Below are positions 10,873 through 27,188 of a stretch of DNA of 64,000 nt, piece after piece. Made by a program: the position numbers and the translations under genes. The stretch lies in contig NZ_JACLGO010000014.1 in assembly GCF_014219065.1 (NCBI RefSeq), forward strand, positions 1 through 64,000. Reading direction: 5' to 3'. Positions within the stretch are counted from its first letter, which is position 1. Each line of letters opens with the position of its first letter. This DNA comes from Halopseudomonas xiamenensis. GTDB taxonomy: Bacteria > Pseudomonadota > Gammaproteobacteria > Pseudomonadales > Pseudomonadaceae. The notes beneath the pieces were generated by a model, which saw only the letters and a program-made list of their open reading frames with translations, did no database searches and had not been told where the DNA came from.

Positions 10873-10917
10873 CTCCGAAGGCAGGGGTCACAGGTTCGAA
10901 TCCTGTCGGGTGCGCCA
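10873..10917 (+). repeat. 3' fragment of tRNA-Arg(CCG): attachment-site scar of a genomic island
   Basis: Exactly 45 nt can be read as the 3' part of a tRNA. These are the anticodon loop CTCCGAA (anticodon CCG), 3' anticodon stem GGCAG, variable loop GGGTC, T-arm ACAGG-TTCGAAT-CCTGT, 3' acceptor strand CGGGTGC, discriminator G and CCA. The 5' half is absent: the bases before it (CCAGATTGCA) are not a matching stem or D-arm. Tyrosine-recombinase islands that integrate into a tRNA leave just such a displaced 3' end at their distal border. By the usual geometry the island lies to the left, with an intact tRNA-Arg and integrase beyond the window start. A degenerate copy lies at 26964. Confidence 0.8.
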
Positions 10918-10949
10918 TTTCCCTTTAGATCAAGAGCTTTTTCAAGATT

Positions 10950-11918: not shown

Positions 11919-14900
11919 CTACTCCAACACACTTCCATTAGATTCGGATACGACTCTTTCCAATCTGCTCTTCATCTGTTGGGTCAGACGCCCAATACCA
12001 AGCGCTTGGCAGAACGTCACAAAGTCCCCCTTGTCACCGCATACTGCCAATATCTCAGCCAACTCCTGAGAACAAATGTAATCCAGCTTCTTTGCTTCCT
12101 CGTCTCTACACTGGATGCGGGCAGGCTGCCGTGCCTCCACATCTATTTTCTCGGGCCAATAGAACGTACCTATATCCTCTCGGGTACACGCTCCGTAGTC
12201 TGCTGCAAATTGCACGACCCGCTCCCTGATCTGCCTCCCGGCACGCTGAAATCCATGCCGCCTCGCCACGCGCCGCACCATTACATCCTCGTGAATGGGG
12301 CCTTCCTGATCAATGATGTGCAACACCATTTCTTTGAGCACCGGGTCATAGTCAGCGCTATAGAACAACTCTGGATCTGCCGGGAAGGCCTCCAAACTGG
12401 CTTTCACATAGCTGTTCTCGACAACCGCCCCGCCAACCCGAGCAATTGTTTGATCAGCATGCTTGTATTGGGTCACAATATCTCGATCGGGCTGCTCGGA
12501 CCCTGCTACTGAGCGATCGACTTCCTGTTCCCGCAGTGTTTCCAGATGCCGGCTCAGCTGTTGATCCAGTTCCTCCAGTGCCTTGGCCCGATTGATCCAC
12601 CAATCCGTTGACCAAACCCGGAACAACGTCCAACCCAGGCCCTCCAGTACACTCTGGCGAATCTTGTCCCGCTCACGCGCATAGGCGGAGCTGTGGTACA
12701 TGGCTCCGTCGCATTCGATCCCAGCCAAGTACAGTCCAGGTTTGTCGGGGTGCACCACACCCATGTCGATCCGGTAGGCGGACACACCAATCTGTGGATG
12801 CACAATCCAGCCTCTATCCTGCAGCCCTCTGGCCACAGCGACCTCAAATGGAGATTCGTAGTCCCCCCTGGAGCCATGCACCGCCGCCGCCAGCGCAGGA
12901 GCACCCCGCTCGGCGTACTCGAGAAAATGTTTGAGGTCGGCGACTGCCCGGGCCTGAGTTCTGCTCAGATCGATGCGGTCGGGAGGCATGGTGGAGAACA
13001 CCACCATTTCCGAGCGGGCTCGGGTCATGGCTACGTTCAGGCGGCGCTCACCACCGGTACGGTTGAGCGGTCCGAAGTTCATGGTGACGTGTCCGGTTTC
13101 ATCGGGGCCGTAGGTGATGCTGAACAGGATCACGTCCCGCTCATCGCCCTGCACCGTCTCCAGGTTTTTCACAAACACCGGCTCAAGCGTAACGTCCTCG
13201 GAGAACGCCCATTCGATGGAAGGATCTTCCGCGCGCGCCTTATCCAACAGATCCTCAATCAGACTCTGCTGCTCGGTATTGAACGTCACCACACCGATCG
13301 ACTGCTGACGCACCGCGGGATCGTCGGAGGTAAGTCGCCGGACAATTTCCGCCACGATGGCCTTGGCTTCCTCCTGGTTATGCCGGGCCTTGCCACGGGC
13401 ATAGAAGCCTTCCGGGCGTACCAGGGACACACCCTTGTCCGGATGGACAGGCGCAGGGAAGGTAACGAGCGAGCTGTCGTAGTAGCGACTGTTGGAAAAC
13501 GCAATCAGACTCTCGCGCCGCGAACGATAGTGCAGGTTGAGGACGCGCTGCGGGATACTGGCCCCAAGCAGCTCATCCAGAATACTTTCCAGATCACCCT
13601 CTTCATCAATATCCCCATCCGGGTCATTGTCAGCGCGGGCAAAGAAGTTGGTGGGCGGCATCTGTTTCGGGTCCCCAACGACGATGACCTGCTTGCCCCG
13701 CGCCAGAGAGCCGACGGCATCCCAGACGGTGATCTGCGATGCTTCGTCGAAGATCACTACGTCAAACAATGCCTGGCCCGCTGGCAGGAACTGAGCGATG
13801 GACAAGGGAGACATCATCAGACAGGGCGCCAGCGATGTGATCACGTCCGGCATCTCTTCCATCATTTCCCGCACCGGCTTGTGGCGCGATTTTTTCTGCA
13901 GTTCACGGCGCAGCACACCCCAGGACGAGCTGCGCTTGACCTCTTCTTCGTTCGGAATCTGCCCCGCCAGACTGGCAGCGATGTATTTCGCAGTCAGGTC
14001 GGTGAACTGACCATCCATCTCCCTGAAGCGATGAATAGCGTCTTCATGCTCTGGGGACGAGAAAGTCCGCAGCACCTCGTCCTCGTCAATGACCGCCGAG
14101 GACCACCAGGCACAATAGGCCGCCTCGAATACCTCGACCACCTCATCCGGCTGAACAACTCCACTTTCGATTGCCTGCACCAACGGGCCCAACTGCAGGT
14201 CCATTGCTTCGGAGCGTCGACGCACCCAGGCGCACCAGTCACGCAGAGCAACATGATGTTCAATGATGCGCTGACAGAGCGCGGCAGTTGAGCCCAGCGC
14301 ATCCGCACCACCGGGCAGCAGGCTATCGAGGGTAGACCCAGTGAGACTTTCGAATCGGGCTTGCTCCGCCTTCAATTCGGCGAAAGCGTCCTGGAACTGG
14401 ATAATGGCCCGGCCTATCGGTGCTTCGAGCGCCAACATATCGTTGGCGTCGTACAGCAGCGTCCGAATCTTCTCTCTCAGCGCCGCCAGGGACGCCGCAT
14501 CCTCCGCCAGCTTGCTTACCGCCGCGCGGGCGCGATTGCCTAATGCCTGCAACGTGGCCATCGCCTGCGGATCAGAATCGTAGGACTTCCAATCTCTCAG
14601 CCCCTGCAGGACCCCGTCCAGGCGATCAATATGGCTGCCAGTCTCCCGCAGCTCACGCAGTACGGAAATATCGTTATCCGGATCCGGCTCACCCTGAGCA
14701 CCACCCGCCCGCATCTGTTTCAACACCTTGCGCTTGGCAAAAAAGGATTTTGGCCACCAGCTGTCGTTGGCTTCGGCCCAGGCCGCAGCCAGCTGATCTG
14801 CATCCAGCGTCTTCCAGGCCAGAGGAGCGTACTGACAGCTCAACTTCGCCTGGGTTGCGATGTAATGCTTCAGCTTGGTAACCGCTTCCTCCAACGCCTC

Positions 14901-17741
14901 CAGCCGATCTGTTGCGTCATGCTCCAGAGCGAATGACGCCTGAGTACGGTAGGAGTCCAGCATTACCTGCCCGAACTCAACTGCCGCAACCAGTTTAGGA
15001 AAGGACATAACGCCGAGTTCAGCGCCCAGCGATTTCTCCAGAGTAGCCAGACCAGCGCCCACCCGCTCCGCAGCCGCCTGCAAGCTTCCGGCAGAACGCA
15101 CCAGGTCACCCTGCCACTGGGAACTCCATTCGTACTGGCCGATGGCCTGCAACGGGTGATCTGTCAGCGTACCCAGCGCTCTGGCCTGCACACCCAGCAG
15201 CCCGGCCATATCCCGCAATTGTTGCAGCTGCTGCTCGTCATGCTGGTCCGCACGGGCCCAGCTCAGACGGACTTTTGCCGCCATAGCCTCATCGCGAATC
15301 TTGATTCCTATGGCGTAGTGCGCGGTGAGACCGTTTCGGCGCGGCTGATGCAGAGCATTGACCACCTGATTGAGTCGGTCACGCAAGGCTTTCAGACGGT
15401 CCGCCTCAGCCTGCCACTGGCTGACAGGTGCCTGTCCGGCACTGGTCCAGGAGGTCCGCAGCTGATCCAGCACCTCAACCTTCTTCGCCTTGTTCGAATG
15501 CAATTGCAGACAGAACTGACCCAGCCCGATATCCCGCAGCCGCCGATAGACCACTTCAAGTGCAGCCGTCTTTTCCGAGACGAACAGCACTTTCTTGCCC
15601 TTGCCCAACATGTGGGCAATGAGGTTGCTGATCGTCTGGCTTTTACCCGTTCCCGGCGGGCCGATAATGACAAAATCCTTGCCCCGATCCGCGGTAGCAA
15701 TAGCCGCCATCTGCGCGGAATCCGCAGGCAGCGGTGCCAGCAAATCCGCTGGCGTGTAGTCCCTGTCGATGTCCCCTGCTTCGACAAAACGGATATCGCT
15801 GTCGTAGGGTTCTCTGGGCGTGTCCAGCAGATGTTTTACGACGGGACTCTGCTTGAGCTCCGCCGAGCGATCTACCAGATCCTTCCACATCAGGTACTTG
15901 GCGAAGGAGAAATGCCCCAGCACCACGTCCTCTACCACCTCGAAACCGGGCACGTCCTTGATCGCATGCCGTACTCGGGTCCAGACACCAGCGACATCCA
16001 CCCCGCTCTCATCTTCAGGTAGCGCCCCACCGAGACCAGGAATCTCGATACCGAAATCCTTCTTCAGCAGCTCCAACAAGGTGGTGTTGAAACGTGGCTC
16101 GTCATCATTGGCGACCATTCTGACGCCGCTGCGCACGGACTTACGCTCGAGCGTCACCGGCAACAGGATCAACGGGGCGCGATAACGCCGATCATCCTTG
16201 TCCTTCTGCTTCCAGAGCAGAAAACCCACGGCCAGAAACAGGGTGTTGGACCCGCCTTCCTTCAGTGAGGTTTGCGCCCGGCGGTATATCTCTACGGCCC
16301 GCTTATCGAGCTCCTCCTGGCTCAGCTCAACCAGCACCTGCTTCTTGGTCAGGGCGTCGCGGGCGTACTCCTCTTTCAGATCACCACCCGTGCGTTGCCG
16401 ATATATAGCCTCGTCCTGGTCCTGGCCTGGCAAGCGCGGGAACGGCGCTATGGAGATACGCGCGCCACTGGCCAGCGCGTCTTCCAATGCACCGGGATCG
16501 CCACACACTATGGTCAGGCTACTCTTGCCTGATTTATGGTTGAGCAAGGGGTTGCGGGCGGATAGATCGAGCAACTTACGCTGCCAACGCTCCAGCCGCC
16601 CCATTGGAGTCTCTTCTTCCGGGTCCGATTCAACCACGATTGTGCTGCCAGGCAAGCTCGGCGCCTCTTCCAGCCCCGGCTCGACCAGCTCGCTCACATC
16701 GCCCATGGAAACCGGGCTGTCGGCCTTCATCCCAAGGCTGAGAGGATTGATCCTGTGCCCGCGGGCGCGGCGGATATCAACGGCGGCAATAAACTCATGA
16801 TCTTTCTCCAAGGTCAGCTGCCTGGCCCCCTCCTGCACTGCCCGGGAGAAGGGCACCGCAGGATGTTGAGTCATCAGCGTTGTTTCGATCAGGATCAGTT
16901 CCTTGAGCGGAATGCGCTGGCGGAGAATTTCAGCGTCCTCCACCACCACACTGGCCAGATCTTCCTTTTCCAGCCACAGGCCCACCAGCGCATGGCCTTC
17001 CGTCAGCACAACCAGAGGGTTCAACCGCGCCTGTTCAAGGGCCGCTGCAAACAGCAAGGTGGTATCGAGACAGGTCGCTACCCTTGCACTCTCAATCTGG
17101 CTGGGCAGGCGGATCTTCTGACCATCACGCTCGAAGCTGGCGGGAGGCAGCGCATAGCCTAGCTGCATCTTGACCACCGCCGAATAAATGGCAGAGGCGA
17201 GCAACCAGACCCGCTCGCGACTGTTGGCGCTGTAGCCATCAATGCCGTCTGGCTTGCCAGCCTTGCGCAGAATCTGACTGGCCTGCCCCAACAACCGATC
17301 CACCGCCGGGTCGTTCGGTGTGCAGAAAGCCGCCAAGAGCTCAGGCATATAACCCGCCCCGCCCCACTCGTTGCGCGCCAGCAGCTCCACGGGGATGATC
17401 TGCTCCTCCAGCGTCTCCCCACCCTGACAAACGCGTATCGTCACCGCGCTGCGCATCGACTCCGTCAGACCGTGCAAAAAGCCGCCATCAAGCTCCAGAT
17501 CCCGGTCCTTCATGCTGAGCAAACCGCCCGCCGCCAGGCGATCCACCACCCAGGTCTTCTGCTTCAGAAACGCAGGCGACGCTTCCAGTACCACCGACAG
17601 ATCAGTCAGGTCCTGCTCATCGTCCAGGTTCTCTACCTGCAGTTCGCGCAGCACTGCAAAGGCGCTTTGATGGCAGGCGAAGTTGATCTTGCCCACCAGG
17701 GTGGCGTGGATTTTTATTTTTGGTGATTCCTGGTCGGACAT
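11919..17741 (-). CDS. DUF4011-helicase-Vsr-type defence protein (Hhe-like), 1940 residues
   Basis: Single giant protein. Domain order: an N-terminal DUF4011 region (about 380-600, with RLERWQRKLLDLSARNPLLN marking its start); a UvrD/Upf1-like superfamily 1 helicase with Walker A GPPGTGKS at 694-701 and DEAS at about 1331 (VIFDEASQITVWDAVGSLAR); helicase motifs to about 1590 (GERRLNVAMTRAR); a Vsr/DUF559-like nuclease at about 1630-1715 (IECDGAMYHSSAYARERDK, FRVWSTDWW); and a DUF3320 domain at about 1770-1850. This is the architecture of the DUF4011-helicase-Vsr anti-phage system (Hhe). A GGGAAGGATC ribosome-binding site precedes the ATG. It lies downstream of a truncated ATPase in the hsd operon direction and upstream of mrr. 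The frame is intact, so activity is plausible. Confidence 0.85.
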   Translation of the reverse strand: MSDQESPKIKIHATLVGKINFACHQSAFAVLRELQVENLDDEQDLTDLSVVLEASPAFLKQKTWVVDRLAAGGLLSMKDRDLELDGGFLHGLTESMRSAVTIRVCQGGETLEEQIIPVELLARNEWGGAGYMPELLAAFCTPNDPAVDRLLGQASQILRKAGKPDGIDGYSANSRERVWLLASAIYSAVVKMQLGYALPPASFERDGQKIRLPSQIESARVATCLDTTLLFAAALEQARLNPLVVLTEGHALVGLWLEKEDLASVVVEDAEILRQRIPLKELILIETTLMTQHPAVPFSRAVQEGARQLTLEKDHEFIAAVDIRRARGHRINPLSLGMKADSPVSMGDVSELVEPGLEEAPSLPGSTIVVESDPEEETPMGRLERWQRKLLDLSARNPLLNHKSGKSSLTIVCGDPGALEDALASGARISIAPFPRLPGQDQDEAIYRQRTGGDLKEEYARDALTKKQVLVELSQEELDKRAVEIYRRAQTSLKEGGSNTLFLAVGFLLWKQKDKDDRRYRAPLILLPVTLERKSVRSGVRMVANDDEPRFNTTLLELLKKDFGIEIPGLGGALPEDESGVDVAGVWTRVRHAIKDVPGFEVVEDVVLGHFSFAKYLMWKDLVDRSAELKQSPVVKHLLDTPREPYDSDIRFVEAGDIDRDYTPADLLAPLPADSAQMAAIATADRGKDFVIIGPPGTGKSQTISNLIAHMLGKGKKVLFVSEKTAALEVVYRRLRDIGLGQFCLQLHSNKAKKVEVLDQLRTSWTSAGQAPVSQWQAEADRLKALRDRLNQVVNALHQPRRNGLTAHYAIGIKIRDEAMAAKVRLSWARADQHDEQQLQQLRDMAGLLGVQARALGTLTDHPLQAIGQYEWSSQWQGDLVRSAGSLQAAAERVGAGLATLEKSLGAELGVMSFPKLVAAVEFGQVMLDSYRTQASFALEHDATDRLEALEEAVTKLKHYIATQAKLSCQYAPLAWKTLDADQLAAAWAEANDSWWPKSFFAKRKVLKQMRAGGAQGEPDPDNDISVLRELRETGSHIDRLDGVLQGLRDWKSYDSDPQAMATLQALGNRARAAVSKLAEDAASLAALREKIRTLLYDANDMLALEAPIGRAIIQFQDAFAELKAEQARFESLTGSTLDSLLPGGADALGSTAALCQRIIEHHVALRDWCAWVRRRSEAMDLQLGPLVQAIESGVVQPDEVVEVFEAAYCAWWSSAVIDEDEVLRTFSSPEHEDAIHRFREMDGQFTDLTAKYIAASLAGQIPNEEEVKRSSSWGVLRRELQKKSRHKPVREMMEEMPDVITSLAPCLMMSPLSIAQFLPAGQALFDVVIFDEASQITVWDAVGSLARGKQVIVVGDPKQMPPTNFFARADNDPDGDIDEEGDLESILDELLGASIPQRVLNLHYRSRRESLIAFSNSRYYDSSLVTFPAPVHPDKGVSLVRPEGFYARGKARHNQEEAKAIVAEIVRRLTSDDPAVRQQSIGVVTFNTEQQSLIEDLLDKARAEDPSIEWAFSEDVTLEPVFVKNLETVQGDERDVILFSITYGPDETGHVTMNFGPLNRTGGERRLNVAMTRARSEMVVFSTMPPDRIDLSRTQARAVADLKHFLEYAERGAPALAAAVHGSRGDYESPFEVAVARGLQDRGWIVHPQIGVSAYRIDMGVVHPDKPGLYLAGIECDGAMYHSSAYARERDKIRQSVLEGLGWTLFRVWSTDWWINRAKALEELDQQLSRHLETLREQEVDRSVAGSEQPDRDIVTQYKHADQTIARVGGAVVENSYVKASLEAFPADPELFYSADYDPVLKEMVLHIIDQEGPIHEDVMVRRVARRHGFQRAGRQIRERVVQFAADYGACTREDIGTFYWPEKIDVEARQPARIQCRDEEAKKLDYICSQELAEILAVCGDKGDFVTFCQALGIGRLTQQMKSRLERVVSESNGSVLE

Positions 17742-17989: not shown

Positions 17990-19153
17990 CTACATCTGAC
18001 CAGCAAAGGCTTTTTGGCTCAAACCACTGGCTAACTCATCATGCCCCCCAAGCGCCAAAAAAAGGTGCTGCTTATACGCCTGAATAGTTTTATAGCGTTC
18101 AAGAAAAGCTATTTGCAGGTCATGGGGTGGCAAAGCCACTGGAGTTTTCGCAATCAACCCAACATTCAACGTAGGCTGGGCTACGGCGCGAGTTTCCCGC
18201 TCGAAATAGCCTTGAACCACCGGATTCTGGAGGTAACGATAAACATACTCGCGGTTTACTCCTTCACGAATAGGTATACGCGTGACTGCTCGCGCAATAT
18301 TCCATCCAATCATTTCATCGCTGACCCAGCCGACACGACCAATAGTGCCTACGCACGCGATCAGAATTTCATTTCCTTTTAGCTTTGACTTTCTATGCTT
18401 CCTATCAATGCTTGCCGATACTCTCCTAAGCTGCCGGACGTCAGGAGTAACATCAGAAAGGTCTCCAGACCTTACCAATGGCACACCGTCACCTTCGTTA
18501 TCACCCGGTTGAACAACGCCGTAGTTCAATTTGTCATCGGGATCAACAAGCGTAGAAAGCTCAACAACATTCCACCCCTTCGGATTGGTCACCGGGTCGC
18601 CGAACATGTCCAGAAACACGGCGCGGAGGAAGTCGTCGGCGAGCTGGATGGCTTGCTGGCGTTTGCGGCGGATGGCATCGGCCTTGTCGAGGATGGCGGC
18701 GATGCGCTTTTGTTCGGGCAGGGGTGGGAGGGGGATTTCATGCTGCCAAAATAACTGCATGGACACTCGCGGCATTTTTGCGCCAGCCACCTGAGAGCTA
18801 ACCCAGTCAACAAAGCTTTGTGAACGCAAGTAGTAGGCTAGATATTTACGGTCTATTCGCAACGGATCGGGCAGCATCGGTACTAATTCAGTAGTCGCCA
18901 AACCTCTCCCATCAGGAAGGACCACTTTATTTAGATAGGGACGAAGCTTGGAATAAAGAACATGCCGCGCATCAAAACCATGTGTTGACGTACCGACCTC
19001 TGAAACAGGCGCCATAACTTTCCCTAGCACCTTGCCTGTATCAGGCTCTACCTGATCCAGATTCAGTGTCCACACTTCGTCGCTCGCGGAAAAGGCGTGT
19101 TTGCTAGGCTTAGCTGGCGCAACATCGCCCAGTTTAACCAACGGCCAACTCAC
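17990..19153 (-). CDS. hsdS: Type I restriction-modification specificity subunit HsdS
   Basis: 387 residues from a GTG start that overlaps the hsdM stop (GTGA), so translation is coupled. The protein has two target-recognition domains: TRD1 in about residues 1-150, beginning WPLVKLGDVAPAKPSKHAF, and TRD2 from about 190, beginning PKGWNVVELSTLVD. They are joined by a conserved helical spacer (LPEQKRIAAILDKADAIRRK) with a second conserved helix near the C-terminus. HsdS sets the bipartite DNA target for both methylation and cleavage. The target sequence cannot be predicted here. Base composition is lower in GC than hsdM, common for TRD-swapped hsdS genes. Confidence 0.95.
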   Translation of the reverse strand: MSWPLVKLGDVAPAKPSKHAFSASDEVWTLNLDQVEPDTGKVLGKVMAPVSEVGTSTHGFDARHVLYSKLRPYLNKVVLPDGRGLATTELVPMLPDPLRIDRKYLAYYLRSQSFVDWVSSQVAGAKMPRVSMQLFWQHEIPLPPLPEQKRIAAILDKADAIRRKRQQAIQLADDFLRAVFLDMFGDPVTNPKGWNVVELSTLVDPDDKLNYGVVQPGDNEGDGVPLVRSGDLSDVTPDVRQLRRVSASIDRKHRKSKLKGNEILIACVGTIGRVGWVSDEMIGWNIARAVTRIPIREGVNREYVYRYLQNPVVQGYFERETRAVAQPTLNVGLIAKTPVALPPHDLQIAFLERYKTIQAYKQHLFLALGGHDELASGLSQKAFAGQM

Positions 19154-20754
19154 AGCATCCCCTCCAGCTCTTCCAGGTCCGCCATAATCTCCCGCTCCAG
19201 CCCTTTGAGCCGCTGCAGTATCACCTTCGGGTCTTCGTACTCTTCCTGCTGATACACCACGTCCTTGTAGCGATTGATGGAGAGGTCGAATTTGTTGGCA
19301 GCGATATCGGCTGCCGATACCACAAAGGCCTTTTGGGTCTTGTCGCCAAAGGCCGCGTTAATGGCATTGGCACTGCTGTTGCCTTCGACCAGACGGCGGT
19401 AGGTGTGCCACTGGGCGATGGCGTCGGGCAGGTCGTTGCCGTCTTCACCCTTGAGCGGGGTGCGCTTGTCGTCCAGGGAGTAGCCGTCGGCCTGCAGGTC
19501 GTAGAACCAGACCCGCTCGGTGCTGCCGCCTTTGGTGAAGATCAGGATGGCGGTGCTGACGCCGGCGTAGGGTTTGAATACGCCACTGGGCAGGCTGACG
19601 ACGCCTTCCAGCTGGTTGTTTTCCAGCAACTCCTGGCGCAGTTGCTGGTGCGCCTTGGATGAGCCAAACAGTACCCCGTCCGGCACGATGACGGCGGCGC
19701 GGCCGCCGAGCTTGAGCGAACGCAGGATGTGGGCGACGAACAGCAGTTCGGTTTTCTTGGTCTTGACCAGCGCCAGCACGTCGGGGTTGGTGTTGGTTTC
19801 GTCCAGGCTGCCCTTGAATGGCGGGTTGGCCAGCACCACGTCGAAGAAATCCTGCTCCTGCTGCGGGTAGTTTTCCTTGATGGATTTGCTCAGGCAGTCT
19901 TGGTACAGGATGTTCGCCCCGTTCACCCCGTGCAGCATCATGTTCATGCTGGACACGCGCAGCATGGTGGTGTCGAAGTCAAAACCCCAGAACATGTGCT
20001 TGTTGATATGTTCGCGGTAGGGTTCGAGCAGGTCGCCAGTGTAGTGCGGGTTGCCGTCTTCGTCATGGAAAATCCCCGCCTCGCTGGAGTGGCTGCGGTT
20101 GAGGTACTCCATGGTGCGAGCGAGAAAGCCGGCGGTGCCGCAGGCCGGGTCGCAGATGACGTCGGCGGGTTGCGGGTCGATCAGCTCGACCATGGCGTCG
20201 ATGATATGGCGCGGGGTGCGGAACTGGCCGTTGATGCCGGCGGTGGTCAGCTTGCTCAACAGGTATTCGTAGATATCGCCTTTTACATCGCTCTGGGTCA
20301 GCGGCAGGGCATCCACCATCTCCACTGCGGACACCAGTACCGATTCGTTCTTGATCTCCAGATCGGCGTCCTGCATGTATTCGCCGATGTGGCCCAGCGC
20401 TGCCAGCGCACTGCCCTCGCCGCCCAGCCCGTCTTCTGTTTCCGATACCTGACCGATGCGGGCAAACCAGGGGTAGACCTCCTGCTTGAGGTGTTTGTGC
20501 AGCTCCTTGCCGCTCATGTTGCGGAAGTTCTTCCAGCGCAGCAGCTGGCCCTCCGGGGTGTCTGGGAACAGGCGGTCGAAAGCTTTGCCGGTGCGCTTGG
20601 CCTTGCGCTCAGCGACGTCTTCCTGCATGTCGAGCATGCGGGCGAACATCAGGTAGCTGATCTGTTCGATCACGGTCAGCGGGTTGGTAATGCCGCCGGT
20701 CCAGAATTTTTCCCAGAGTTTGTCGATGTCGTTACGGAGTTTGCCAGTTAGCAT
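19150..20754 (-). CDS. hsdM: Type I restriction-modification DNA methyltransferase subunit HsdM
   Basis: 534 residues, full length. The N-terminal HsdM_N helical domain (about 1-135, starting [20 protein letters not shown]) is followed by the N6-adenine methyltransferase domain with SAM motif [18 protein letters not shown], the catalytic NPPF ([13 protein letters not shown]) and a conserved [20 protein letters not shown]. It forms the M2S methylase with HsdS and protects host DNA. The start follows the DUF1016 gene by 15 nt, and the stop overlaps hsdS. Order in the operon is hsdR-DUF1016-hsdM-hsdS. Confidence 0.97.
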
Positions 20755-20769: not shown

Positions 20770-21825
20770 CTATTTCGTTAAGTCTGATTGGTAATGGGCT
20801 GCGGCTTCCTGAATGCGCAGCACTCTGTCGCGCTCGCGTTCCAGTTCGCGGCGCAGCTCTTCTTCGCTGGGTAGTTCGGTCAGGTATTTGGAGGCGAACA
20901 GCTGTTTATTTTCACTGAGTACCGAGTACCTGGCGACGGTGTGGTTGTGCTCGCTGCACAGGATAAGCCCTATGGTCGGGTTATCGTCGGGGCGACGTTT
21001 TTGCTCTTCATACATGCGCACGTACATGTCCATCTGGCCCACGTCCTGATGGGTGAGCTTGTGCATTTTCAGGTCGATCAGCAGAAAGCATTTGAGGTGA
21101 AAATTGTAAAACACCAGATCAATGAAGTAATCGCCATCGTCGGTGCGGATGCGTTGCTGGCGCTCGACGAAGGCAAAGCCCTTGCCCAGCTCCAGCAGGA
21201 ACTGTTGCAGGTTGCTGATGATGGCCTGCTCCAGGTCGTTTTCCTGGTATGTCTTGTCCTGCAGGTTGAGAAAGTCGAGGATGTACGGGTCGCGGAGAAA
21301 CTCCCTGGGGTCGTCCGGCAGGGCGGCGGTTTTTTGCTGGGCTTCCTGCTCAACTACTGACTTGTCTTTGCTGGCAAGCAAGCGCTCGTAGTAGAGCACG
21401 CCTATCTGACGCTCCAGGGCGCGAACACTCCAGTTCTGCTGGGCTGCTTCATCTGCGTACCATTGCCGAGCAGAGGGGTTTTCCAGCCTCATAAGTATCC
21501 GGTAATGGCTCCAACTCAAAACACTACACAGTGTGTAGTGTTTTGGAATGGTGAGATAAAACTGCCGCATATTGCGCAGGTTACCGACGTCAAAGCCTTT
21601 GCCAAACTCATTCTGCAAACGCTGCGACAGTTGCTCTAACTGCTGTTTTCCATACTCAGCGCGCTCCTGCCCCTGCTGCTCCTCTTCAACAATCAAGCGG
21701 CCTATATGCCAATAGGCTTGCACCATCTGCTGGTTGACCGCCTGTTTTACCTGCTGGCGAGCCTGCTGGATAACCTCCGCAATCGCGGTGTACAGGGTTG
21801 CTTCGGGTAGCTTCTGATTGCTCAT
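20770..21825 (-). CDS. DUF1016 / YhcG-type PD-(D/E)xK nuclease-domain protein in the hsd operon
   Basis: 351 residues. The N-terminal DUF1016_N helical domain (about 10-150) contains [20 protein letters not shown] and [12 protein letters not shown]. The C-terminal YhcG-like nuclease domain has [20 protein letters not shown] and [17 protein letters not shown], where the D...DLK pattern fits a PD-(D/E)xK active site. The ATG overlaps the hsdR stop in ATGA, so it is translationally coupled. DUF1016 proteins are frequent extra genes in type I restriction operons. Their function is not established; a nuclease or accessory role is inferred. A diverged fragment of a second copy lies at 28200. Confidence 0.88.
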
Positions 21826-24800
21826 GAGGTGACGTCCTGTCTTATGAAGGGTTTGAGTACCGCCACCAGCTCCCCCACATCATCCGGGCTGAATACGCCA
21901 TCGATGCCTTCGTGGGAGATGCTGTCGAAGGGCGGCTCGTACAGTTTGTCCACAACGATGCTGCCGTGTTGGGCGATATAGGTCTTCAGCAGGTTCATGA
22001 AGCGCACCTGCTGGGCGGTGAGGTTCGGATGACTGTGCAGAAACGCCTTGAAATGCTCCTCGATGGCCTGCGGGTCGAGGCCGATGATCTCCCGCACGGT
22101 AAGGTGCAGCTCGTCGGCGGTGCGACCGTAGAACTCGTTGAGCACGTCCAGGCTGACGCCCGGATGGCTGGTGAGGATGGTCGAGGTCAGGGTTTTCAGC
22201 TCGGGCTCGGCGATCGGCTCGCCCCGGTAGATCTTTTGCAGGATGGGGTTGGCCTGAAGCATGTCATCCAGAATGTCCTTGAGACGCCGGCGGTAGATCA
22301 GCGCTTCGTTGGCGCCGGCAATGGTGACCTTGCGCTCTTGCACGCTGATGCCGCCGTCCGCGGTGCGCGTACCGGGAGTGCCATATAGCGGCCCCTGCCC
22401 GGCGGCGCGGTATTTCATGATGCCGCGCAGCTCCCTGCGGGCGTGCTCCAGCCGCTCGATGCTGGGCGACTGCCAGAAATCCGCGCTGCGCACTTCGGCA
22501 ATCACCGCGTCCTTCTGGCGTACGGCCTGAATGTTCACCGCCAGCTTGTCCAGTTCGGCCAGCAGCGTGTTCTTGCCATCGTCGAAACAGCTGGCCTGCT
22601 CCACCAGGCAGGTCTGAATTTCAGACATCAGCTTATCCAGTGCGGTGGCGTGCTTGTCGCGCAGCACCCTTGCGCTCATCAGCGGCGCGATGGTCTCGAC
22701 CAGCAGATGCTGGGTTCTGGCATCCAGTGTCCTGAGCTGGTCGCTCTGTTGCAGCTGATGCACCGCACGCAACTCCCGCCGCACGGCAACGCTGGTGTCC
22801 GGCAGGTCGTTGACATCGGCGCGCAGCAGCTCGATCGCGGTATCGAAAGCCGCCGCATGGTTGCGCTTGAGTGCTGACTGAGCCAGCGCCAGCCGGGACT
22901 CGAAGGTGGTCTGCAGCAGCGATTTGCCGCCGGTGTCTTCCGGTTCCTGATACTCCTGCTCGAAGTAGTCGAAGTTGCCGTAGTGATCAAAGATCAGGAA
23001 CTCGGTCTTGTGCCTGCCGGGGCCGAACAGGTTGGGCCGCAGGCGGGTGCCACGGCCGATCATCTGCCAGAACTTGACCCAGGATTTGACCGGCTTGGCA
23101 AACACCAGGTTGACCACTTCCGGCACATCAATACCTGTGTCCAGCATGTCCACCGAGATGGCAATACGGAAGTCGTTGTCCGGCTGCTTGAACTCCTTGA
23201 TCAGGCTGTCAACGTGCGGCACCTTGTTGTGGATGACCTTGCAGACCTTGCTGCCGTATTGCGGGTAGAGCTTGCAGAATACCTTTTCCAGATGCTCTGC
23301 ATGATCCTGACGCTGGGCAAAGATAATGGTCTTGCCGACCAATGAGCCGGTTTCATCCCTGATACCGTTGTTGATCAGGTTCTCGAGAATGATGCGGTCG
23401 GTATCCTCGCTAAAGATCTTGCGGCCGATGTACTTGCCGGCGATGGTGGTGCGCTGCGCCTCTTCTTCCCCCAGGTCTTCTTCGAGCTGACGCTTCTGCT
23501 CATCGCTGAGGTCGTTGTAGTGAATACCGTCACGCAGGAAGTCGGTGGTCAGATCCTTGACCCGGAAGGGCACCAGATAGGGTGGTTCGTTGTTGATCGC
23601 CGCGTCCAGACCGAATTCGAAGGTGGGGTCGGTGGTTTCACAGTCGAACATGTCGAAGGTGTTGCGGCTGATGAATTTGACCGGCGTGGCAGTCAGGCCG
23701 ACCTGCAGGGCGTCAAAGTAGTCGAACAGATCGCGGTACTTGTTGTAGATACTGCGATGGCTTTCGTCGGCGACGATTAAATCGAAAAAGCCCACATCCA
23801 GCTGAGTAAAGCGGTTCATCATGCCCGGATAGGTGGCGATGTAGATACGCGCGCTCTGATCGACCTGGTTGGTTTCACCAATCACGCAGCGCGGCTCACT
23901 CGGCAGGTTCTGCTTGAAAGCATCATCGGCCTGTACGCGCAGCTCCTTGCGGTCACACAGGAACAGCACGCGTTTGGCCCAACCGGTACGCAGCAGCAGC
24001 TCGGCCAGGGCGATGGCCACCCGCGTCTTGCCGGTGCCGGTGGCCTGGATGATCAGTGCCTTGCGACGCTGCTTCTGGAAGTGCGCGGCCACCGTCTTGA
24101 TCGCTTCGATCTGGTAGGGCCGGTCGGCGATGCTTAGCTCGGGGTTGTGCTGTTCCAACGCCGCGACACGGTAGCTGCGCTGGTAGATCAGATACTCGAG
24201 GCTGTCCTTGCTGTAGAAACCGTACACCGGGCGATAGCTGTTGTACTGCTTGTCATCCCAGATGAAGGTTTCGTAGCCATTGCTATAGAAGATGACCGGG
24301 CGCTGATAGCCCATGCGCTCCAGCGAGTCGGCATACAGGCGCGCCTGCTCGCGGCCAGCCTGCAGGCTGGTGTTACCGGATTTCTTGGCTTCCACCACGG
24401 CTAAGGGCTGGCCGTTATTCCCCCAGAGCACGTAGTCGACATAGCCCTTGCCAGAAGGATTGTTCGGAAAGTCGACTTGAACCTCTAACCCAACCTGCTC
24501 GGTATTGCCCACATCCCAGCCGGCTTGCAGCAGCATGGCATTGATCATCAGGGCACGGGTTTTCGCTTCGCTCCATTGCAGGCTATCGGCAACCTGCTGG
24601 CTGTTCTGTTGGCGCTTTTGCTGGTCGGGAATGGCTGGAGGGTCCAGATTTTCCAGCTTGCGGACGCGCTGCTGCTCCAGCTGATCCATGACCCGCTGCA
24701 ACTCGTCCTGCTGCTTCTGCAACTCTTTTTCATAGCTGGCGACAGATTGTTGGAGCTGGCCCATAGCGACGGTCGGATCCGGCACCTCGCTGAACTCGGG

Positions 24801-25193
24801 AATACTGTCCTGAGCCACGCCGTAGTATTTGATGGCCATGTACATGGCCAGTTGGTGAGCAGTCTTCAGCGCCTGTTTGGCATCGCGCAGGTGGCCTTCC
24901 GCACCATGTGCGGTGTCATTGCCCAGGACTCGCAGGAAGTTGATCTGATGAATCAGCGACTTGCTGACACAGTCACCAAATACCGGGTTTTTTACCAACT
25001 CGTAGAAGCTGGACTGAGGCAACCGGGGCAACAGCTCCAGCTGATAGATCGCCTTGGTCAATTCCTCGGCAAAGCTGCGCAGGCGTGTCAGCGCGCTGCC
25101 GGGATCGATATACAGCACAGCTTCGGCAAGGCCGCCCAGGCTGGCCAGAGTGTCGTTACCTGCTCGCAGGAACTCGAAGTTGACTGATGTCAT
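21822..25193 (-). CDS. hsdR: Type I restriction endonuclease subunit HsdR
   Basis: 1123 residues from the ATG at 25193. An in-frame ATG at 25211 exists, but it would coincide with the predicted transcription start of the sigma-54 promoter at 25223-25238, so the downstream start (TSVNFEFLRAGND) is preferred. Domains: N-terminal DUF4145 (about 15-130), a coiled coil (SVASYEKELQKQQDELQR), the HsdR nuclease with DYVLWGN and AVVEAKKSG (D...E-x-K), a superfamily 2 motor with Walker A ATGTGKT and VADESHRSIYNKYR, and the EcoEI-type C-terminal domain. It translocates DNA and cleaves unmethylated DNA far from the site. It is first in the hsdR-DUF1016-hsdM-hsdS operon. Confidence 0.95.
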   Translation of the reverse strand: MTSVNFEFLRAGNDTLASLGGLAEAVLYIDPGSALTRLRSFAEELTKAIYQLELLPRLPQSSFYELVKNPVFGDCVSKSLIHQINFLRVLGNDTAHGAEGHLRDAKQALKTAHQLAMYMAIKYYGVAQDSIPEFSEVPDPTVAMGQLQQSVASYEKELQKQQDELQRVMDQLEQQRVRKLENLDPPAIPDQQKRQQNSQQVADSLQWSEAKTRALMINAMLLQAGWDVGNTEQVGLEVQVDFPNNPSGKGYVDYVLWGNNGQPLAVVEAKKSGNTSLQAGREQARLYADSLERMGYQRPVIFYSNGYETFIWDDKQYNSYRPVYGFYSKDSLEYLIYQRSYRVAALEQHNPELSIADRPYQIEAIKTVAAHFQKQRRKALIIQATGTGKTRVAIALAELLLRTGWAKRVLFLCDRKELRVQADDAFKQNLPSEPRCVIGETNQVDQSARIYIATYPGMMNRFTQLDVGFFDLIVADESHRSIYNKYRDLFDYFDALQVGLTATPVKFISRNTFDMFDCETTDPTFEFGLDAAINNEPPYLVPFRVKDLTTDFLRDGIHYNDLSDEQKRQLEEDLGEEEAQRTTIAGKYIGRKIFSEDTDRIILENLINNGIRDETGSLVGKTIIFAQRQDHAEHLEKVFCKLYPQYGSKVCKVIHNKVPHVDSLIKEFKQPDNDFRIAISVDMLDTGIDVPEVVNLVFAKPVKSWVKFWQMIGRGTRLRPNLFGPGRHKTEFLIFDHYGNFDYFEQEYQEPEDTGGKSLLQTTFESRLALAQSALKRNHAAAFDTAIELLRADVNDLPDTSVAVRRELRAVHQLQQSDQLRTLDARTQHLLVETIAPLMSARVLRDKHATALDKLMSEIQTCLVEQASCFDDGKNTLLAELDKLAVNIQAVRQKDAVIAEVRSADFWQSPSIERLEHARRELRGIMKYRAAGQGPLYGTPGTRTADGGISVQERKVTIAGANEALIYRRRLKDILDDMLQANPILQKIYRGEPIAEPELKTLTSTILTSHPGVSLDVLNEFYGRTADELHLTVREIIGLDPQAIEEHFKAFLHSHPNLTAQQVRFMNLLKTYIAQHGSIVVDKLYEPPFDSISHEGIDGVFSPDDVGELVAVLKPFIRQDVTS

Positions 25194-25222
25194 ATACGTA
25201 ATTCTATCCATGCTGATCGAGT

Positions 25223-25238
25223 AGCAAGGAGCAGGCCA
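25223..25238 (-). promoter_or_regulatory. Sigma-54 (RpoN) -24/-12 promoter for the hsd operon
   Basis: The bottom strand from 25238 to 25223 reads TGGCCTG-CTCC-TTGCT, against the consensus TGGCACG-N4-TTGCW. The invariant GG and GC are present with the correct 10-nt spacing, and all but two defined positions match. The -12 element places transcription start near 25212, leaving a leader of about 19 nt before the hsdR start at 25193. It sits in the short gap between hsdR and the sigma-54 activator gene, whose stop is at 25243. No clear activator dyad is visible upstream; such sites would lie inside the activator's 3' coding region. Confidence 0.75.
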
Positions 25239-25242
25239 GCTG

Positions 25243-26724
25243 CTACTCCATGTCGTATTTATCCATCCAGTTACTCAGCGTCTGCTGACTCTTCAGGCCA
25301 AGCAAAGCCGCTGCGCGGGTTTTGTTGCGCCCGGTGATATCCAGCGCCTGGGCTATGTAATGTCGCACCAACCCCCCTACCAACACTTGTATATCAATGC
25401 CTTGGCTCACATCACGAGCAAGAATGTCGGTATCTTTATTCGGCACGGAGAAGAGTGCCCGCTGCAACTCCATCGCCTCGATGGTATCACCATGACACCA
25501 GAGCGCAGCCCTGAGCAAGGTTGCCTGCATCTCCCGCACATTTCCCCGCCACGGCTGATGGATAATAAGATTCTTTGCACCAACCGAAAGTACCTTACTT
25601 TGCAGTGACGGATCTTCCTGGCCGATAGTGGCAAGCAGGGCATCCGCCAGCAACAGCAGGTCCCCAGCCCTTTCCCGCAGCGGCGGCAGATGCAACCCCC
25701 CCACCGCCACCCGGTAGAACAGGTCTTCCCGGAAACGGCCTTCTGCAACGTCGAGCATAAGGTCTCGGTGGGTGGCGGCTATTATTCTTACGTCTACTCG
25801 CTGCTCCACACTGGAGCCGACCGGCATGCATGTTCCTTCCTGCAGCACCCGCAACAATCGCACCTGAACATCCGGACTCAGCTCGCCGAACTCATCCAGA
25901 AACAGGGTGCCGCCGTTGGCCTGCTGAAATACACCGGGGCGATCGGACACAGCGCCGGTAAAGGCACCCTTACGGTGTCCAAAAAGGATGGAGTCAATCA
26001 GTTCGGCGGGTATCGCACCGCAATTGATCGGTACAAAGGGAGCGTCTGCGCGCGGCCCGGCGTTGTGGATGGCTCTGGCAAACAACTCCTTGCCTGTGCC
26101 CGTTTCACCATAAATGAGTACCGGCACTGTCTTCTGCGCGAGGATCTGGGCCTGCTCCTTGAGCCGCTGCATGGTGCTGTTCTGGGTGAGGATGCTGTCG
26201 AACGCCGCATCCACCGGTACCGAACGCGTCGCCAGACGGGCAATTTCATCACTGCTGATGATATTGGCTGCCGGAACATATTCCGCCGCTATCTCGAAGG
26301 GGATATCTATCTGCTGCGCACCCTGCTCCCGCGACGACTGGTAAAAGATGGCCGGATATCGTGTCTTGCCCAGCAGAATCCAGACAGCCTGCATGGCTGC
26401 AGTGCCGGGGCTGAGCAGAATGGCAAGCTTCTCACCCTGCTGCTGCAAACGCTCCAGATGGCGACTGGCGGCGTTATGTATCTCGCCGAAATGGACAGGC
26501 GAACTCAGATCTTCGCAGTGCAGAGCAACCGGCACGCCGGTCTGCTGGATAAGCCAGTCGCGGTACGCTTCCGCCTGCGCAGCAGGATAGGACGACAGCA
26601 GCTCCAGACGCCGGAAAGGGAATGCCTGCAGTGTCGACAGAACCGGCCCGGAAGGACCATCGCTCAAGGCATTGAGGTCATTACCACCCAGCCAGCAAAC
26701 CAGTACCACCCCAGCTTCTGTCAT
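25243..26724 (-). CDS. Sigma-54-dependent activator with N-terminal CARF-like sensor domain (RtcR-like)
   Basis: 493 residues. Residues 1-165 form a Rossmann-like sensor, starting EAGVVLVCWLGGNDLNAL, with LLSPGTAAMQAVWILLG at about 105-121 matching the CARF motif (S/N-x-T/G-G-T-x-x-M). CARF domains in RtcR and CRISPR effectors bind oligonucleotide or cyclic nucleotide ligands. The AAA+ domain has Walker A GETGTGKE at about 205, the sigma-54 contact loop GAFTGA at 253-258 and LFLDEFGELS as Walker B. A Fis-type HTH (ALDITGRNKTRAAALLGLKS) ends the protein. A GGGAG site precedes the ATG. No rtcBA genes are nearby. Instead it sits directly upstream of the type I restriction operon and its sigma-54 promoter, so it probably activates that operon. 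The ligand is unknown. Confidence 0.88.
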   Translation of the reverse strand: MTEAGVVLVCWLGGNDLNALSDGPSGPVLSTLQAFPFRRLELLSSYPAAQAEAYRDWLIQQTGVPVALHCEDLSSPVHFGEIHNAASRHLERLQQQGEKLAILLSPGTAAMQAVWILLGKTRYPAIFYQSSREQGAQQIDIPFEIAAEYVPAANIISSDEIARLATRSVPVDAAFDSILTQNSTMQRLKEQAQILAQKTVPVLIYGETGTGKELFARAIHNAGPRADAPFVPINCGAIPAELIDSILFGHRKGAFTGAVSDRPGVFQQANGGTLFLDEFGELSPDVQVRLLRVLQEGTCMPVGSSVEQRVDVRIIAATHRDLMLDVAEGRFREDLFYRVAVGGLHLPPLRERAGDLLLLADALLATIGQEDPSLQSKVLSVGAKNLIIHQPWRGNVREMQATLLRAALWCHGDTIEAMELQRALFSVPNKDTDILARDVSQGIDIQVLVGGLVRHYIAQALDITGRNKTRAAALLGLKSQQTLSNWMDKYDME

Positions 26725-26737
26725 GACTCTCCCTTTC

Positions 26738-26959
26738 AGTCGCCAGCTGAACTTTCCGGTGCATTGAGCTGCTCATCCGGCACGTACTCAACCAAGTCCT
26801 CAACCTTACAGTTGAAGTAACGGCATAGTCCATCAAGATGATCGGTGCTGAGTGCTGAAGTCCCGTCGGTTGATCATTTTCGACAACGCCACACGGTGAG
26901 CCCCCGCGCCCTCCGCAACCTCAGCAATAGTGATGCGCCTCCCTTCCTCAAATGCCCTG
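26738..26959 (-). pseudogene. XRE/Cro-type HTH regulator, 5' truncated and frameshifted
   Basis: The bottom strand encodes FEEGRRITIAEVAEGAGAHR and VALSKMINRRDFSTQH, a Cro/CI-type helix-turn-helix. After STQH a one-base insertion shifts the frame. The continuation in the next frame is DHLDGLCRYFNCKVEDLVEY and VPDEQLNAPESSAGD, followed by TGA. That C-terminal pattern (LDxLCxYFxCxVxDLxEYVPD) is typical of small XRE regulators. The first 8-10 residues are missing: the sequence upstream is the degenerate tRNA-end repeat. The stop lies 13 nt before the sigma-54 activator start, so it was once the first gene of that transcript. It is unlikely to be functional unless the frameshift is a sequencing error. 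Confidence 0.75.
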
Positions 26960-26963
26960 CGAG

Positions 26964-26998
26964 CAGGGTCACAGGTTCGAATTCTGTCGGGGCGACAT
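26964..26998 (+). repeat. Degenerate copy of the tRNA-Arg 3'-end repeat (island border)
   Basis: Bases 26966-26991 match 10885-10910 at 25 of 26 positions, including GGGTCACAGGTTCGAAT and CTGTCGGG, in the same orientation. The flanks also resemble each other with small gaps (CATTTTTCCTT against CATTTCCCTTT). Unlike the left copy it lacks the anticodon loop and has a damaged CCA. The two copies enclose the 16-kb defence segment, so this is the likely second border. It abuts the truncated XRE gene. The sequence from 27000 to 27188 holds no supported gene. Confidence 0.65.
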
Positions 26999-27188
26999 TT
27001 TTCCTTCCAGCCTGTCTTAAGTGGATAACCCACAAATTTAGATATTTATAAACAGCGGCAGCAATTTTGGTTCGCATGATTCACCGCCTCGACCGAAGAG
27101 CTGTACGCAAGTCCCACAAACTGGCGAAGGCGGCGCAAGGTCCCTGCCAATGAAGGCCTCCCACAGATCGCAGGCCGCCTCCGAAGGA

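Follow-up and report, generated by a model that had tools for sequence, protein, structure and literature searches.

Is type I restriction in Halopseudomonas xiamenensis always on, or does the cell switch it on when a signal arrives? The question is raised by a 64,000-nucleotide stretch of its genome (assembly GCF_014219065.1, contig NZ_JACLGO010000014.1, positions 1 to 64,000; here called the window), in which the gene for a bacterial enhancer-binding protein (bEBP), the type of activator that works with sigma-54, lies directly upstream of the restriction gene hsdR and is codirectional with it. The activator open reading frame (ORF) spans positions 25243 to 26724 on the minus strand (493 amino acids), and hsdR (PADLOC REase_I) spans 21822 to 25211 on the same strand. 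We consider it likely from the sequence that the type I restriction operon is preceded by a self-contained sigma-54 switch, made up of the activator, a -24/-12 promoter, and a predicted enhancer, and that restriction is probably turned on by a signal instead of being always on. Comparison of related loci shows that the downstream defence genes vary, whereas the activator gene stays associated with the promoter near its stop codon and with a DNA dyad (within the gene or, in a few relatives, in the gap behind it).

The promoter element, TGGCCTGCTCCTTGCT, lies 4 nt past the activator stop codon on the hsdR strand (minus strand, positions 25238 to 25223). Its GG and GC are at the canonical spacing, as the original prediction had proposed for this short gap. 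Elements were scored against the sigma-54 consensus TGGCACGNNNNTTGCW over a range that starts 30 nt before the activator stop and ends 230 nt past it. A score of at least 9 of 12 was reached on the operon strand in 40 of 44 related loci, compared with 1 of 44 on the reverse strand. TGGC-N9-GCW was present in 36 of the 44, while the same half-sites at ten shifted spacings were found in 0 to 7 loci. When each locus was compared with 500 dinucleotide shuffles of its own, 27 of 44 gave a P value of 0.01 or less. As a control, the 300 nt upstream of hsdR homologues without the activator were scored, and only 1 of 17 contained an element of 9 or more. The element was found in all four homologues with activator sequence upstream, namely, three loci already among the 44 and a relic, L122, from a genome of the same family. 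Only the last 31 codons of the activator remain in L122, the promoter is kept, and the intact-looking hsdR is 84% identical to that of the window, which we read as a natural loss of the activator. A chance match was rejected, since conservation across relatives is far beyond chance and the hsdR controls gave only the single hit; the conserved element after the activator is real.

These counts rest on a survey with an N-terminal activator profile, chosen because other bEBPs flooded a full-length search across the class (306 of 369 genomes). Across the order, the profile matched over its full span in 26 of 390 genomes, including the window's own; an earlier scan of genome contigs with a single protein had given two loci only. 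The 44 loci with a full-length activator come from 24 genomes of the order, 6 genomes of the class, 7 plasmids, 1 metagenome-assembled genome, and 6 viral contigs. Left out were L088 and L091 (activator partial or broken), L109 to L112 (weak, RtcR-like), and L119 (a duplicate viral contig). L115 and L116 are near copies and were counted separately, and related rows generally inflate the counts. From the hsdR controls, L145 and L151 were excluded for too short an upstream sequence. L121 and L124 to L126 (activator present, genomes already among the 44), L123 (starting inside hsdR), and L130 (a partial HsdR match) were not carried into the count either.

An inverted repeat also crosses the -12 element in many loci, and its native arms pair better than swapped ones (mean, 5.17 versus 3.75; permutation P = 0.0002 for 18 loci, in related rows). 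We did not build on this repeat as a functional element: different arms are used in the window and in L009, and in RNA folding the promoter junction is only slightly under its shuffles (mean z, -0.75).

The promoter also bears on where hsdR begins, because an in-frame ATG at 25193 follows the one at 25211. Forty loci have an element scoring at least 9; in 17 of these, the counterpart of ATG 25211 lies exactly 11 nt after the 16-nt element, and in L104 it lies 12 nt after it. These 18 belong to 22 such loci with a window-type HsdR as first cargo, the other four being L044, L046, L084, and L093. With the usual numbering, in which the C of the GC is at -12, the A of ATG 25211 would fall at +2 of the predicted transcription start site, leaving a leader of about 1 base. 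The original prediction had argued that the transcription start makes 25193, not 25211, the start codon; the fixed spacing speaks against this, and we rejected 25193 as the main start. A version of the idea survives in which 25193 is the hsdR start and ATG 25211 owes its fixed spacing to a promoter-proximal element and not to translation. In L127, an hsdR homologue without the activator, the start appears to correspond to 25193, and in most loci the second ATG is kept 18 nt after the first. Against it, L084 and L093 keep the first ATG, farther from the promoter and behind its own purine-rich Shine-Dalgarno-like sequence, and L100 does without the second. We therefore think this version rather unlikely, and because of the fixed spacing, the Shine-Dalgarno-like sequences, and L100, we read 25211 as the start of an hsdR mRNA that is probably leaderless. 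The available text of PMC3616915 reports leaderless transcripts for E. coli and Pseudomonas putida.

What would carry the activator to this promoter? Among 31 aligned activator genes, the codons of residues 378 to 389 have 2.18 times the expected synonymous identity, compared with a null maximum of 1.28 in 60 within-gene codon shuffles; at residue 383, 25 of the 31 genes use GCA. As we read the column table, the constrained DNA is an imperfect dyad, TAAnAnnnTTT-N10-AAAnnnTnTTA. In the window, this 32-bp dyad is TAAGGTACTTTCGGTTGGTGCAAAGAATCTTA (minus strand, positions 25566 to 25597), about 340 bp before the promoter. It was scored with a symmetrised profile from which each locus was left out in turn while its relatives were kept; the intragenic dyad reached at least 10 in 33 of 44 genes, compared with 1 of 418 control blocks. 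The best support for the dyad as a cis site of the promoter comes from nine loci in which the promoter lies at least 60 nt past the activator stop. In five of them (L043, L106, L114, and the near copies L115 and L116), the coding site has decayed to 7.6 or less, and a copy of the dyad stands in the gap or at its start, overlapping the activator stop codon in L106, L115, and L116. The centres of these copies are 81, 71, 81, 81, and 81 bp from the promoter, respectively (shuffle P values, 0.0005 to 0.008). In L087, a coding copy and a gap copy are both present, and the gap copy of L117 is borderline (P = 0.0135). The dyad thus looks like an enhancer (upstream activating sequence), and the activator itself may bind it.

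Constraint alone does not identify the binder, and the synonymous signal could instead serve RNA structure, an internal promoter, or the site of another protein. This explanation gains from a dyad score below 10 in 11 of 44 genes and from a second constrained stretch that the enhancer leaves unexplained (residues 434 to 451; minus strand, positions 25372 to 25425; observed/expected ratio up to 1.43 in 31 genes), which is possibly an accessory site. It is hard to square with the reappearance of the dyad 71 to 81 bp before the promoter in the five loci that lost the coding copy. Nor does it fit the dyads that 8 of 44 loci carry at P < 0.02 in the 250 bp before the activator gene, where 0.9 would be expected, and we regard it as unlikely. 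The upstream dyads, which do not include the window, suggest autoregulation in some lineages. Copies 37 to 115 bp upstream of the aligned activator start were noted in L090, L094, L104, L092, L045, L047, and L103.

Several observations weigh against a switch in which activator, enhancer, and promoter decide whether restriction is expressed. The promoter of the window departs from the consensus at two positions and on its own reaches only P = 0.016 (500 dinucleotide shuffles). L097 and L099 have TGGCACGATACTTGGA, one base off, with GG for GC at -12. Within the same search ranges, L098 and L118 have neither a convincing promoter element nor a dyad, and the profile found no dyad in L107 and L108, which do have the promoter. 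The activator-less hsdR controls are distant, with 32 to 42% identity to the window HsdR. L122, with its intact-looking hsdR, indicates that the operon may also be kept without an activator, and read-through from an upstream sigma-70 transcript is possible.

A different explanation gives the sigma-54 promoter a real but minor part: the operon would normally be driven by a constitutive promoter that lies before the activator, and sigma-54 would only boost it. The genes are codirectional, with gaps short or overlapping, and the orphan promoter of L122 persists without its activator. Restriction, moreover, is safe only after prior modification. The 11-nt spacing between promoter and ATG in 17 loci argues in the other direction. 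It leaves almost no room for a ribosome-binding site outside the promoter, so that a read-through transcript may translate hsdR poorly, although some of the spacers contain short purine runs. On balance, we find a minor role for the promoter doubtful and retain the sigma-54 switch as the likelier account.

The PADLOC profile RtcR_PspF2--CARF_AAA_HTH (PDLC01995) matches residues 7 to 493 of the activator (680.8 bits; E = 3.2e-205), and of its 17 matches in the genome, the window activator is the sole one that spans the N-terminal domain. The AAA+ sigma-54 interaction domain (residues 179 to 342; minus strand, positions 25699 to 26190) carries GAFTGA and matches Sigma54_activat (PF00158; E = 1.5e-66). 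The CARF-type sigma-54 activator next to hsdR is as originally described, and rpoN is present in the genome. At the C terminus, where a Fis-type helix-turn-helix (HTH) was claimed (residues 454 to 489; minus strand, positions 25258 to 25365), the family profile covers the whole protein, but HTH_8 (PF02954) itself reaches 15.4 bits, under the Pfam cutoff of 22.

For the N-terminal domain (about residues 1 to 150; minus strand, positions 26275 to 26724), the original prediction had proposed structure prediction as the check on its CARF fold. An AlphaFold2 model of residues 1 to 168, built with the window protein and six relatives, had a mean predicted local distance difference test score of 85.7 and a predicted template modelling score of 0.80. 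Its C-terminal strand pair (residues 125 to 131 and 135 to 139) fits the strand-5/strand-6 hairpin described for CARF domains. Foldseek gave 50 PDB matches at an E value of 0.001 or less: 5 dehydrogenases and 45 proteins that we take to be CARF proteins (Csm6, Cam1, Sis0811, SSO1393, Card1, Can2, VC1899, Cad1, and others). The best match was Csm6 (E = 4.3e-6), and the ten best chains were all CARF (TMq, 0.55 to 0.68), with loose superpositions (root mean square deviation, 4.1 to 14 Å). Model and PDB matches agree and support a predicted CARF-like fold. The original prediction had named loss of the promoter motif in homologous loci and lack of a CARF fold as grounds against it, and it came through on both counts. 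Residues 104 to 111 read LSPGTPAM in five of the seven aligned sequences, VSPGTPAM in one, and LSPGTAAM in the window, a stretch without lysine or arginine. In the available text of Makarova et al. (2014; PMC4012209), RtcR-type CARF domains mostly lack a charged residue after strand 4, and it is our own reading that residues 104 to 111 correspond to that position.

Kinship with RtcR invites the explanation that the activator is RtcR itself, sensing RNA damage through RtcAB. It shares the domain layout of RtcR and matches the RtcR model weakly, at 312.8 bits against an equivalog cutoff of 650. No RtcB gene was found in the genome (RtcA was not searched for), so RtcR-style signalling through RtcB is not expected here. 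On the low score and the missing RtcB, we rejected RtcR proper, which we regard as highly improbable.

The genes behind the switch vary. Cargo was typed by tblastn with the genes of the window and L043 and by eye. An hsdR-like gene comes first in a type I restriction-modification (R-M) cargo behind 27 of 44 activators; type I matches are partial in L041 and L082, the sequence of L096 ends before hsdM, and the HsdR matches of L090, L103, and L108 are partial, with 32 to 33% identity. L094 has an M-S-R operon with hsdM first behind the promoter. TerY-P-like VWA/PP2C/kinase cassettes occur in 5 of 44 loci (in L107 only after another large gene) and MoxR-VWA-like genes in 2 of 44 (L047 and L083, labelled by eye from translations), and 9 of 44 have other or unseen cargo. 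On a quick activator tree, the five TerY-P rows require five changes. All cargo labels together take 14 changes, compared with a shuffled mean of 15.9, and so show hardly any clustering. L046 has hsdR as cargo, and its close sister L047 (support, 100) has MoxR-VWA. Their DNA is 73 to 83% identical until 16 nt before the promoter and 38% in those 16 nt, with two differences inside the element, 60% identity over the next 30 nt, and 43 to 54% beyond. The scattered cargo and this junction indicate that control unit and cargo have been exchanged repeatedly. The contigs filed as viral (L113 to L119) carry the activator, with a promoter match of at least 9 after it in 6 of 7; their cargo includes, by eye, a YprA-like helicase and a protein kinase.

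In the window, the gene order on the minus strand is activator, hsdR, yhcG, hsdM, hsdS, a ProA-type gene, and mrr. The YhcG/DUF1016 PDDEXK nuclease gene spans 20770 to 21825 (PF06250; E = 6.2e-58), hsdM, the type I methyltransferase gene, spans 19150 to 20754 (PDLC03021; E = 4e-181), and hsdS, for the specificity subunit, spans 17990 to 19153 (PDLC03107; E = 9.7e-70). All three genes of a type I R-M system (hsdR, hsdM, and hsdS) are therefore present. The next gene after hsdS (11919 to 17741) encodes a ProA-type anti-phage protein (DUF4011, AAA, and REase; NF058533, 2206 bits against a cutoff of 1500). The yhcG gene stands between hsdR and hsdM here, in L009, and in L081; most other relatives gave no match at this place, and the gene seems to be an optional insert in the operon. 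Two 3'-end fragments of tRNA-Arg(CCG), at 10885 to 10920 and 26966 to 27000, flank the 16-kb stretch from mrr to the activator. They lie on the same strand and are 92% alike over about 35 bp, and a different contig (L134) has an intact tRNA-Arg(CCG). The island with the restriction genes was probably acquired by integration. Directly upstream of the activator, the minus strand of 26745 to 26960 resembles, by eye, a broken XRE-type HTH gene. The span given in the original prediction, 25193 to 26724, leaves out the operon as well as the pair of tRNA-Arg fragments that bracket the island.

We propose that the CARF domain would restrain the AAA+ domain until it is freed by a signal, of nucleotide or RNA type, that marks infection or damage. 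By kinship with RtcR, the ligand may be RNA ends, although RtcB is not present here. A hexamer of the activator would then bind the dyad in its own gene and loop over about 340 bp to the sigma-54 polymerase. The transcript would begin at or beside the hsdR AUG and be translated without a leader. If hsdR, yhcG, hsdM, and hsdS are expressed as one unit, restriction and modification would both be inducible. More tentatively, we consider it possible that activator, intragenic enhancer, abutting promoter, and leaderless start form a mobile control cartridge in front of unrelated defence operons. Type I restriction and modification would remain off until the CARF domain senses an infection signal, and leaderless hsdR would be translated even when normal initiation is impaired. 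If so, the genome of an uninduced host would lack the modification, and induction would bring on a restriction that might damage the host itself.

Since 2014, CARF-bEBPs have been linked to restriction by prediction from gene neighbourhoods, and the conserved promoter and predicted enhancer turn this link into a precise circuit that can be tested at the level of single bases. It raises the question of how a cell survives when the endonuclease is switched on with the methyltransferase perhaps controlled in the same way. Taken as a pair, dyad and promoter also provide a sequence signature for finding further defence operons under RtcR_PspF2-type sensors, including unrecognised cargo.

E. coli sigma-54 reportedly shows widespread binding within genes (PMC4591121). 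Among defence regulators, BrxR of BREX (PMC9122589) resembles the present activator in having proposed cis elements in its own coding sequence. It differs, in the text available, in being a WYL-domain protein without a sigma-54 connection, and its authors suggest a possible intragenic promoter. With RtcR and the rtcBA RNA repair operon (PMC9650030), the locus would share CARF repression of the AAA+ domain, a sigma-54 promoter, and an upstream activating sequence. According to the accessible part of that paper, oligoadenylates are not the signal of RtcR. The downstream genes are different here, no RtcB was found, and the predicted enhancer is inside the activator gene.

The original prediction regarded the arrangement as undescribed, but the association was published in 2014 and again in 2024. 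As far as their available text goes, Makarova et al. (PMC4012209) noted that RtcR-like CARF-bEBPs unlinked to Rtc are often near R-M systems and may regulate DNA restriction via sigma-54, and Bell et al. (PMC11090510) described the association in CoCoNuT superoperons with a proposed induction of restriction. As in those superoperons, an RtcR homologue stands directly before type I R-M genes on one strand, with transcription proposed to be induced by infection. No McrB-like CoCoNuT gene was found among the two operon-strand genes tested after hsdS (ProA and Mrr; smaller ORFs were not scanned), and the main text of Bell et al. mentions a promoter once and not as a -24/-12 element. The literature matches listed, which include few subscription journals and no supplements, contain in their available text no description of a conserved -24/-12 promoter, intragenic enhancer, or leaderless start for the RtcR_PspF2 family. 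The association is thus already known, and the cis-architecture was not met in the literature searched. Among the closest known systems is the family described in 2014, which we ourselves read as the RtcR_PspF2 family of PADLOC (PDLC01995). It shares the domain layout, the R-M neighbourhood, and the proposed CARF-signalled sigma-54 activation of restriction, to which the present analysis adds the architecture of promoter, enhancer, and start codon.

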